Shown here in pieces: positions 45,943 to 50,307 of a stretch of 64,000 nucleotides of DNA. How positions within the stretch are numbered: position 1 is the first letter of the stretch; the number at the start of each line of letters is the position of its first letter. The notes under the pieces are model-generated. The model searched no databases. It was not told the DNA's origin and saw only the letters and a program-made list of their open reading frames with translations. Source of the DNA: Deltaproteobacteria bacterium (GTDB taxonomy: Bacteria > Myxococcota_A > UBA9160 > UBA6930); the NCBI GenBank assembly GCA_016875395.1, contig VGRF01000026.1, positions 1-64,000 on the forward strand, read 5' to 3'. The position numbers and the translations under genes were made by a program.

Positions 45943-46884
45943 ATGCAGCCGACCCCCGTTCTCTTCGACACCGACATCTCCGGCGACGTCGACGACGCCG
46001 TCGCGCTCACGCTGCTGCTCTCGGCGCCCGAGCGGCTGCGCGTCGTCGCGATCACCACGGTCTCCGGCGACACGCGCGCCCGCGCTTGGGGTGCGGGGCG
46101 TCTGCTCGCAGAGGCGGGCCGCAGCGAGATCGATCTGTGCGCGGGCGTCGCGCAGCCGCTCGTGCGGCGCCGCGAGTATCCGATCGACATGGAGAGCTAC
46201 GGCGACGGCCCCGCGGTCGCGATCAGCGCGGAGCCCGCGCCAGAGCGCATCGTGCGCGCCGCGCGCGAGGAGCCGGGCCTCGAGCTGGTGTTCGTCGGCC
46301 CGCTCACGAACCTCGCCCACGCGCTCGCGCTCGACCCGAAGCTGCCGAAGCGCGTCGCGCGGCTCACGATCATGGGCGGCCACATCCGCCGCGTCGCGAT
46401 CGGCGAGAAAGTCGTGCCGCCCGGCATCGACTACAACCTGTGCAGCGACCCCGAGTCCGCGGTGATGGTGCTCGGCGCCGGCTTCAACACGCGGCTCGTT
46501 ACGGCCGACGTGACGCTTCAGGTGTGGATGACCGAGGCGCAGCGTGCCGCGTTCGCCGCCTCGCCGCGCGCGGTGCCGCGCATCCTCGCGCGCCTGATCT
46601 CACGCTGGACGCCGCGGCAGATCGAGCTGTTCACGGGAATGGGCGGCACGCTCGCGCCCGACAACGCCGCGTTCCTGCACGATCCGCTGACGGTTCTCTC
46701 GCTCGTCGACGAGAGCACGCTCGGCTTCGAGCGCCTGCACATCGTGCCCACGATTCAGCGCGGAGTGCTGCGCACGATCGAAGTGCCGCCCGCGCTAGCG
46801 CTCGGCGCCGAGATCGAGTGCGCGATGCGCGTGGATGCGGTGCGCGCGAGGGACGAGATCGTGGCGCGCGTGCTGCGATTGTAG
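45943..46884 (+). CDS. Nucleoside hydrolase (inosine-uridine preferring family)
   Basis: A 313-residue N-ribohydrolase that splits nucleosides into base and ribose. The calcium-binding DTDISGDVDD (residues 9-18) is intact, and LVFVGPLTNLAHAL, IMGGHIRR, DYNLCSDPESAVMVL and DNAAFLHDPLTV complete the family signature. ATG start at 45943, without a signal peptide, so it acts on imported or internal nucleosides. Its neighbours are not purine or pyrimidine genes. Confidence 0.93.
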   Translation: MQPTPVLFDTDISGDVDDAVALTLLLSAPERLRVVAITTVSGDTRARAWGAGRLLAEAGRSEIDLCAGVAQPLVRRREYPIDMESYGDGPAVAISAEPAPERIVRAAREEPGLELVFVGPLTNLAHALALDPKLPKRVARLTIMGGHIRRVAIGEKVVPPGIDYNLCSDPESAVMVLGAGFNTRLVTADVTLQVWMTEAQRAAFAASPRAVPRILARLISRWTPRQIELFTGMGGTLAPDNAAFLHDPLTVLSLVDESTLGFERLHIVPTIQRGVLRTIEVPPALALGAEIECAMRVDAVRARDEIVARVLRL

Positions 46885-46940
46885 GGACTGAGGCCGCACA
46901 GCCGGGCGGCGCGGTCGCACGCGCCGCCCGGCTCGCTAGA

Positions 46941-48279
46941 TCAGCGCCCGCACGATGAGCTCGCAGAGGCTGCAACGAGGGCAGCCCTCTGCGTCGCCGT
47001 AATCAGTCCGCTTGTGACGAACGTCTGGGACGCCCGGGATACGCATGAGACGTACTGACCGTGGTTCTTCCACGGAAGCGTCGACCCTGATGGCCCCGCG
47101 CAAGGGCAGAGTTGCTCGAGAGGGGGTGCGGTCGAACCGAAGATCTCCGCGCTCGCGAGAGCCGAAAAAGGTGCCGAAGGGGAGGAGCCCCCGGCCACAA
47201 GTACTCGCCCATCATGCAGTGCCGCGCCGTAGAGAGCCGCTCGCGGTTCCGCCATCGAAGCCATCGATGACCACACACCCAAGCTCGAATCGAAGATCTC
47301 CACAGATGACTTCACCACTGTCCCCTCGAAGCCGCCCGCCACAAGAAGGCGTCCGTCGGGGCGCAGGACGGCCGCGTGGCCCGCGCGCGCATCTGCCATG
47401 GATGCTGCAGCCACGAACGAATTGGTGGACGGGTCGAAGAACTCGCTGCTGGACTGCGCCGCCGACTCAGCGAATCCGCTCCCCCCCAACGATCAGCACG
47501 CGCCCATCCCCGAGCCGGGTCGCGGTGTGATAGGTCCGGATCGTCGTCATCGGGCCGACAGACATCCACGAATTCGAAACCGGGTCGTAGACTGCCGCAG
47601 TATTGGTGCTGACGTAAGGAACGATCCCGCCGGTCACCAGCACGCGGCCGTCTGCGAGCAGGACGCCGAAGCCTCCAGTCTTCGCTTCCGGTGGGGATGC
47701 TGCGGGAGAGAATGCTCCGGTCGCGGGATCGAAGATCTCCGCGGAGGCGAGGTAGTTAAAGTTGCTGCTTCGGCCACCAGATATCAGCACGCGTCCGTCG
47801 GAAAGGACAACGGCCGTGTGATTCATCCGGGGAACCGACATCGACCCCGTAGATGTGAATCCCTCGACGCTCGGGTCGAAAATCTCGGCGCTTGCTGTGT
47901 GCCCTTCCGCATAACCGGACGCAGAGTTCCCACCCGCCAGCAGAATGCGCCCATCCGTGAGAAGCGTGGCTGTGTGATCCCATCGAGGGACCGACATGGA
48001 GCCTGCTGAGCTCCACGTGCCCGATGAAGGGTTGAAGATCTCGGCGGAGGCTCTTGCGATCGTCCCGTTGGGCCCGATGTCTCGTCCTCCGGCAACGAAC
48101 ACCCTTCCATCACTGAGCGTGACTGCGACACCGCCGTGCCAGGAGTCCAAGAGGCGCGTCTCGCTCATCGATCCGGTCGACTGCCAGCCTTCGACCGCGC
48201 TCGCAGGAACGCCAACCCAGAGGATCGCGCCGGCAATTGAGACCGACGCACTTCGTCGCCAGAAAGAGGCAGAGGTCAT
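46941..48279 (-). CDS. Exported kelch-repeat protein, out of frame at a G7 tract
   Basis: A secreted or surface beta-propeller. A signal peptide (MTSASFWRRSASVSIAGAIL, cleavage near ASA) precedes kelch repeats of the form DGRVLVAGG ... SAEIFDP ... W (about eight in all). The first frame ends at 47467 after LIVGGERIR, while the rest continues as MGGSGFAESAAQSSS in another frame. The junction is a run of seven G on the coding strand (near 47480-47490); six G would rejoin the frames. The total length, 1,339 bases, is one too long for a whole number of codons, as this predicts. The C-terminus has a CPCAG...WKNHGQYVSCV...SSCGR motif, a Cys-rich tail seen in other deltaproteobacterial exported proteins. 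Confidence 0.8.
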
Positions 48280-48423
48280 AGGTCATAGTCCTTCGTTGTT
48301 TGCTTCGAAGCACAGCGCTTCGCGCAGCGCCACCCTATGACGCTCTCAGGTAGAAGTTCGGGTAGTTGTCGGCGGCATCGCGATACAGTCGAAATGGGGC
48401 CGCTGTAGAGAGGCGACGACGGG

Positions 48424-50307
48424 GTGGCGAAGACAGATCGAGTCGCGGGCGCAATTCGCCGGCGACGTTGGGCCGAGGTGTCGGAACTTCTGACGATGGA
48501 AGCGGGGCCACTCGCCGCTCAGGGGCGATTCGATGCGATCGAACGGTGGGTCTCGACCATCCCAGAGGAAGTACTCCTCGAGGACCTCGCCTTGTCCTAT
48601 TGGGGCGGTATCGCCGTTCTCACGCGAGCGCCTGCTCTGGCGAGAGATCGCTTCCGGCGAGCGTTCGATTTGTCGCGAGCACAGCACGACGACCTCGGCG
48701 CATGGAGGTCGCTCGCTGCGCTCTGCGAGGCTGAGATCTTCGTCTATCGCGATCTGCAGGGGTTGGACGAAGTGCTCTCGTGGATGACACCCGATCGCGA
48801 GCAGGGGCTCGATCGCCTTCCGAGACTCATCCGGGCTCCGATCGTGTGCGGCGTCCTGATGGGCCTCGCATTCCGACAGCCGAATCATCCTCGAATCGAA
48901 GATTGGAGAACGCGCGCCGAGAAGCTGGTCGAGGAGGATCCCACCGCGGAGATCAGCGGGCGCCTGGCGTTCGCTCTTGTTACGAACGCGACGTGGCGGG
49001 GTGACCTGGCTGGCGCTTCCCTCACGCGCGAACGGTTTCACGCAGCCCGACGAGTTGGCCCATCCTCACCACAGCTTTTGGTGCTGGAGCACTTGGTGGA
49101 TGCGACGCACTACCTCCACACCGGCGAGATCGCCGCAGGCCACGGAGCCATACACGCGGGGTTGAAGGCGTCAGAGATGAACGCGGTGCACATTTGGGAC
49201 GGCGTTCTGCGCTGCCATGGTGCGTCGATTGCGTGTAGCGCTGGCGATCTGGCAGGCGCTCGCGCCCATCTCGAAGCGCTGACGCCGTTGCTTGCAACTG
49301 CCCTTCCGATCGACGAGAGCTATCGGCGCGGGATGCTCGCCTGGATTCGTTTTCTCGAAGATCAGGGTGCCGGCGTGGTCAGCGACTGTGGTCAGTCGAT
49401 TCAGTCTGCAGATGTGAAGGGCGTCCCCTACTTCCAGGGCGTGTGCAGGGTCGGCTGCGCGTTGATGTTGCACCACGCAGGCGAGCGCGAAGCCGCGTGG
49501 GAAGCGCTCAATCGCGGCGCCGAGTTCGCGCGCGACCTCGGGAATCGTCAACTCGAATGGGCGTCGCTGCTCTTTCGTGCGCACATGCACTATCGCGAGA
49601 GGGACGCTCTGAAGGGCGATGCGGCGCTGATCGCGGCAATGCGAATTGGCCACTCCTACCGCTACCGACACTTCTTCATGTGGCCGGGAGAGATCATCCG
49701 CGACCTCATCGACAGGTGCTTCTTACTCGACGAAGAAGTCGAAACCGCAGCGGATCTTGCTCGCTTCCATCGCATGCGGCCCCCCTCGCAGTACGCCCGA
49801 TCGGACCGGTGGCCCTTCGATGTTCGCATCTTCACGTTCGGCCAGCCGCGCATTCAGCTCGCAGACGGACGCGAGATCGCACTGTCGAGCCGCGCGCCAC
49901 GTCAGGCTGAGTTTCTCGCGTCGCTGATCGAGCGAGGCGGGCGTCCCGTGCGTCTACAAGAGCTGGCGGAAGAGCGAGAGGTTACGAGCCGGGCAACAGC
50001 GGCAGCGAAGACCGATGCTCGCCTGAATGCAGTCAAGCAGACGATCCATGGTTTGAGGAAAGTCCTGGGTAAGCATCTCGAGCAGAAGAACGGTGCGGTC
50101 CGATTGAACCCTGAGACCGTTTGGGTGGACGCTCTGAGTCTCCGGCAGCTGCAGCGGAGCGCGAGCGATCCGCGGGGCAGCGAGCGCTGGGCCCACCGCT
50201 ACTACCACGGCACCTTCATGCAAGGCGTTCCAGGGAGCGACACGATCGATCGGCTTCGGACGGACTTCGATCAGCTCATTTCGGCGCGGCTGCGCGCCTC
50301 GCGTTAA
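48424..50307 (+). CDS. TPR-like regulator with C-terminal OmpR-type winged helix
   Basis: A 627-residue probable transcription regulator. Residues about 1-460 are helical with TPR-like repeats (AAWRSLAAL, HHAGEREAAWEALNRGAEFA, WASLLFRAHMHYRER), and the last 150 residues form an OmpR/SARP-type DNA-binding domain: VRIFTFGQPRIQLADGREI, SRAPRQAEFLASLIERGG and LNAVKQTIHGLRKVLG. The P-loop ATPase of MalT-type STAND regulators is absent. The start is the GTG at 48424, 145 bases from the divergent kelch gene, which suggests that it controls that gene. The base composition here is less GC-rich than in the neighbours, as in the kelch gene, so the pair may have arrived by transfer. Confidence 0.7.
   Translation: MAKTDRVAGAIRRRRWAEVSELLTMEAGPLAAQGRFDAIERWVSTIPEEVLLEDLALSYWGGIAVLTRAPALARDRFRRAFDLSRAQHDDLGAWRSLAALCEAEIFVYRDLQGLDEVLSWMTPDREQGLDRLPRLIRAPIVCGVLMGLAFRQPNHPRIEDWRTRAEKLVEEDPTAEISGRLAFALVTNATWRGDLAGASLTRERFHAARRVGPSSPQLLVLEHLVDATHYLHTGEIAAGHGAIHAGLKASEMNAVHIWDGVLRCHGASIACSAGDLAGARAHLEALTPLLATALPIDESYRRGMLAWIRFLEDQGAGVVSDCGQSIQSADVKGVPYFQGVCRVGCALMLHHAGEREAAWEALNRGAEFARDLGNRQLEWASLLFRAHMHYRERDALKGDAALIAAMRIGHSYRYRHFFMWPGEIIRDLIDRCFLLDEEVETAADLARFHRMRPPSQYARSDRWPFDVRIFTFGQPRIQLADGREIALSSRAPRQAEFLASLIERGGRPVRLQELAEEREVTSRATAAAKTDARLNAVKQTIHGLRKVLGKHLEQKNGAVRLNPETVWVDALSLRQLQRSASDPRGSERWAHRYYHGTFMQGVPGSDTIDRLRTDFDQLISARLRASR

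Follow-up and report, generated by a model that had tools for sequence, protein, structure and literature searches.

Whether a tract of seven G in the gene of an exported kelch protein acts as a switch that turns the protein on and off, as the earlier note had proposed, or is simply the site of an ordinary one-base slip, is the question raised by a frame break on the minus strand of the window (the whole 64,000-nucleotide stretch of DNA that was analysed). The window belongs to a 4.51 Mb, 96-contig MAG in which the kelch gene is present as a single copy. The gene and its immediate surroundings are laid out as follows.

48279..47467, minus strand: ORF1, the upstream kelch part, 270 aa; a putative signal peptide is followed by kelch repeats 1-4, by repeat 5 as far as its first strand and by a short off-frame tail
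47489..46941, minus strand: ORF2, the downstream kelch part, 182 aa; it completes kelch repeat 5 and continues with repeats 6-7 and a Cys-containing domain at the C terminus
47481-47487, coding strand minus: G7 tract; it supplies the Gly-Gly codons of the fifth kelch repeat and is where the +1 frame break occurs
46944..47132, minus strand: C-terminal WKNHGQYVSCV domain, about 62 aa, common to the C termini of other exported proteins
48289..48293, minus strand: Shine-Dalgarno-like AAGGA, read by eye, 9 nt 5' of the ORF1 ATG
48424..50307, plus strand: divergent ORF next to the kelch gene, 627 aa, with no Pfam match

The two ORFs overlap by 23 bases at the G7 tract, which appears on the plus strand as seven consecutive C at 47481-47487, and reading through the tract in one frame yields 445 residues with no further stop; the 445-residue frame is thus broken by one surplus G, at the position and in the direction given by the earlier note. 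That note had also called the product an exported kelch protein. The kelch part of this description is borne out by Pfam matches in both halves (Kelch_4, 2.2e-29, in ORF1; Kelch_1, 1e-12, in ORF2; Kelch_1, Kelch_4 and Kelch_6 above the cut-off across the two), and export is predicted from the signal-peptide-like start of the 445-residue reading, recognized by inspection. The reading contains seven diglycine kelch repeats; the Gly-Gly codons are mixed in six of them, and repeat 5 carries the G run. ORF1 and ORF2 are the separated halves of a single kelch protein with seven repeats, predicted to be exported. A candidate identity as radical copper oxidase GlxA or galactose oxidase was not supported, with ORF1 scoring 63.1 bits against the curated GlxA cut-off of 800 when the halves were scanned separately.

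The downstream half retains an open frame and all the hallmark residues of a complete C-terminal domain, and no second lesion was seen in it; for this reason, the slip is either recent or unreal. The only full-length kelch relative found, a 776-codon protein of the Nitrospiraceae MAG SURF_66 (L083), is intact, lacks a G7 tract and is collinear with both halves across the tract (33% identity, E 3e-52). Like the kelch protein of the window, it has a signal-peptide-like start, a kelch propeller (the region of the 33% identity) and, at its C terminus, the same domain, which is 49% identical to that of ORF2; it differs in having one intact frame, TSP3 repeats between the propeller and the C-terminal domain, and no G7. 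No ortholog of the kelch gene was found in 60 relatives searched with ORF2 as the query, in 90 genomes of the class or in a genome contig search (5 loci), and ORF2 had no match in viral contigs. The stretch from 46876 to 50307 is mostly unrecognized as coding by the host codon model, with a G+C content of mostly 62-65% compared to 70% for the window; in the kelch gene, 71% of third codon positions are G or C. The atypical composition and codon usage, together with the lack of an ortholog in the class, suggest that the kelch gene was probably acquired laterally. The divergent 627-aa ORF has the same lower G+C and the same poorly host-like codon usage, and was perhaps acquired jointly with the kelch gene.

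Exact G7 tracts number 42 in the 4.51 Mb genome, that is, about 0.6 per 64 kb, so that one such tract in the window is expected by chance; the kelch tract is the sole G/C run of exactly seven there, if longer poly-G at the start of the contig is disregarded. Four relatives of the same order have 290-353 exact G7 runs each, so that the present genome is depleted in them. To place the kelch tract among the others, frames were scanned by codon usage over 458,906 bases made up of the window, the sequence flanking each of the 42 G7 tracts and several longer runs, and ten samples of 20 kb. Sixteen of the 42 tracts are each spanned by an uninterrupted coding frame, three interrupt a gene whose upstream frame continues for more than 200 nt, one (L069) coincides with an ordinary gene boundary, and 21 are unclassified or in or near non-coding sequence, including one in contig-end poly-C; the remaining tract belongs to the kelch gene, whose atypical codon usage keeps the scan from scoring it as coding, and genes of foreign usage elsewhere may conceal more breaks. 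Among the fetched stretches, none of the 13 G/C runs of at least eight is inside an intact coding frame.

The three genes broken at exact G7 tracts, each one base over and in the same direction as the kelch gene, are the following.

L043, G7 at 1998-2004: sulfatase, with the Pfam Sulfatase match split 1-89 / 76-299
L044, G7 at 1993-1999: NosD-like protein, with the Pfam NosD match split 15-100 / 107-186
L081, G7 at 1994-2000: DUF4124 protein, on a 3.8-kb contig that carries a second break

With the kelch gene, four broken G7 genes are known, including the one on the doubtful 3.8-kb contig. In relatives, the NosD site is intact and free of a homopolymer at all 14 loci, and the sulfatase site at 13 of 14, the 14th giving no alignment across it. 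The breaks, therefore, are not confined to variable surface functions, and neither the sulfatase nor the NosD-like protein is an obvious candidate for phase variation. Altogether, the scan yielded 91 close same-strand junctions, of which 80 are ordinary overlaps; among the other 11, the upstream frame continues for more than 60 nt past the junction in four (L043, L044 and two in L081). Apart from the second break on the L081 contig, no scan-recognized gene was clearly broken outside a G7 tract in the 459 kb. The earlier note's mention of other one-base defects in the window was not upheld: no junction there has an upstream frame running past it, as seen by a codon-usage scan that is blind to genes of foreign usage. 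Counting as broken only those tracts past which the upstream frame stays open for more than 60 nt, three of the 19 recognized coding G7 tracts are broken here (the 16 in frame plus these three) and none of 38 in-frame tracts in samples of two control genomes (G036 and G034), a comparison from which the kelch gene drops out by its early stop and in which the control genomes are richer in G6 tracts. Eight frame switches at G7 in the controls (seven in G036, one in G034) all have a nearby stop and are outside this count, and we make no claim of a difference in break rate.

Long poly-G or poly-C occurs at positions 1-54 of the window, at the start of C7, at the end of C36 (L076) and internally as a G23 run at C1:324015-324037 (L082). 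These runs are probably artefacts of two-colour sequencing, and the internal one may mark a doubtful join; the contig-end poly-G, from which alone the platform is deduced, suggests two-colour short reads. Such reads are less prone than long reads to a one-base consensus error at G7, and the short-read majority consensus at a G7 is usually correct.

Because unrelated genes are broken likewise, the best reading of the locus is an ordinary slip rather than a special switch: very probably, a non-programmed one-base slip occurred at a short G run, either as a recent mutation or as a consensus error. The fifth kelch repeat spells its obligatory Gly-Gly as a G run, with the assembled sequence holding one G beyond the frame, and the extra base would stem from recent slippage in the sampled population or from the consensus. 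Translation would then end four codons past the tract, giving a 270-aa product, presumably non-functional, in which repeat 5 is largely missing and repeats 6-7 and the C-terminal domain are absent. Homopolymer frameshift indels in general, whether slipped-strand mutations or consensus errors, have the same hallmarks, namely, a one-base change in a G run, a broken frame, recent occurrence and unrelated genes affected, and no difference from them was apparent for the kelch case. What weighs against this reading is that the broken G7 genes number only four, one of them on the doubtful contig, and that the controls provide no dependable difference in rate. The two sources of the extra base are about equally likely, each being quite possible in its own right. 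A pure consensus or assembly error, with the gene intact in the organism, is consistent with the clustering of the breaks on G7 tracts, all in the same direction, and with the absence of decay in the downstream kelch half; it fits less well with the 16 of 42 exact G7 tracts in clean coding frames, which indicate that the assembly copes with most of them, and with the general reliability of short-read consensus at this length. Short-read homopolymer accuracy does drop with tract length, and poly-G 8-mers were the worst on one dichromatic platform (PMC11140927). A real, fixed slippage mutation, which would make the kelch gene a young pseudogene in the population, accords with a gene that looks dispensable and foreign, with atypical codon usage, lower G+C and no ortholog in the 90 class genomes or the genome contig search, and short-read data would favour a true consensus. 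Against fixation, the sulfatase and the NosD-like protein, both conserved in relatives, are broken likewise, and the downstream half of the kelch gene has no second lesion.

Phase variation, in which reversible slipping of the G7 tract would switch production of the exported kelch protein within the population, is improbable by comparison. The tract does lie inside the ORF of a predicted exported protein, with the frame open on both sides, and a one-base change in length toggles the frame; moreover, phase variation is documented for a G7 tract in glpK of Mycobacterium tuberculosis, and mycobacterial tracts of seven bases gain or lose bases at up to 3.8e-5 indels per CFU (PMC11898584). Likewise, at least seven G/C is the cut-off in Campylobacter surveys, but the kelch tract is only at this minimum of the lengths usually considered, and the switching described in the same source for C. 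jejuni involves tracts of at least eight (PMC6321876). The likeness to glpK extends to a seven-G tract within an ORF of a high-GC bacterium, where a one-base indel would inactivate the product, whereas the kelch gene is seen as one assembled copy, has no known selection acting on it and no ortholog series, and belongs to a genome that encodes MutS. By this analogy, the kelch gene could be a G7 contingency locus that switches the protein together with its C-terminal NHGxYVSCV domain, a possibility that we rate marginally lower still. The Campylobacter contingency loci resemble it in having poly-G within the ORF of an exported protein, and differ in that the kelch tract is at the lower limit and belongs to a genome poor in coding G tracts, as the census of exact and longer runs above attests. 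The tract simply spells a kelch diglycine, its presence is no more than chance predicts, the full-length relative does without it, and three unrelated genes, the sulfatase and the NosD-like protein among them, are broken in the same direction, so that the proposal of phase variation made in the earlier note is unsupported; nothing indicates a selected switch. Even less credence can be given to the idea that the full protein is restored on the G run, whether by transcriptional slippage or by programmed +1 frameshifting of the ribosome. The G run is read in a phase that could let a glycine tRNA slip one base, which would permit such a mechanism; however, the run is missing from the kelch relative L083, as it is at the corresponding sites of the NosD and sulfatase relatives, and the same kind of break recurs in four unrelated genes.

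The part of the protein that the slip would remove is itself of interest. The C-terminal domain, with the consensus PWKNHGQYVSCV ... SxCGK, is found at residues 714-776 of the L083 protein and also in L160-L179. Of 282 genomes sampled from the phylum, 32 contain it. Among the loci that were read, it mostly ends proteins with TSP3-like (DxDxDG) repeats; it is also present in Idiomarina, Pseudidiomarina, a Nitrospiraceae MAG and two Deltaproteobacteria MAGs, and so has carriers in several phyla, among kelch as well as TSP3-repeat exported proteins. In the proteins tested, the domain had no match in Pfam or NCBIfam, and a literature search with four forms of the motif found no mention of it in the papers covered. 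A role as a sorting or anchoring module is a guess.

The kelch break counsels caution: before a draft-genome gene that loses its frame at a G7 tract is put forward as phase-variable, it should be weighed against every other G7 tract that the genome contains. Were the tract a true switch after all, homopolymer phase variation would be extended to a lineage that is uncultured, encodes MutS and has few long runs of G. As it stands, the unnamed C-terminal domain is a more promising lead than the G7 tract.
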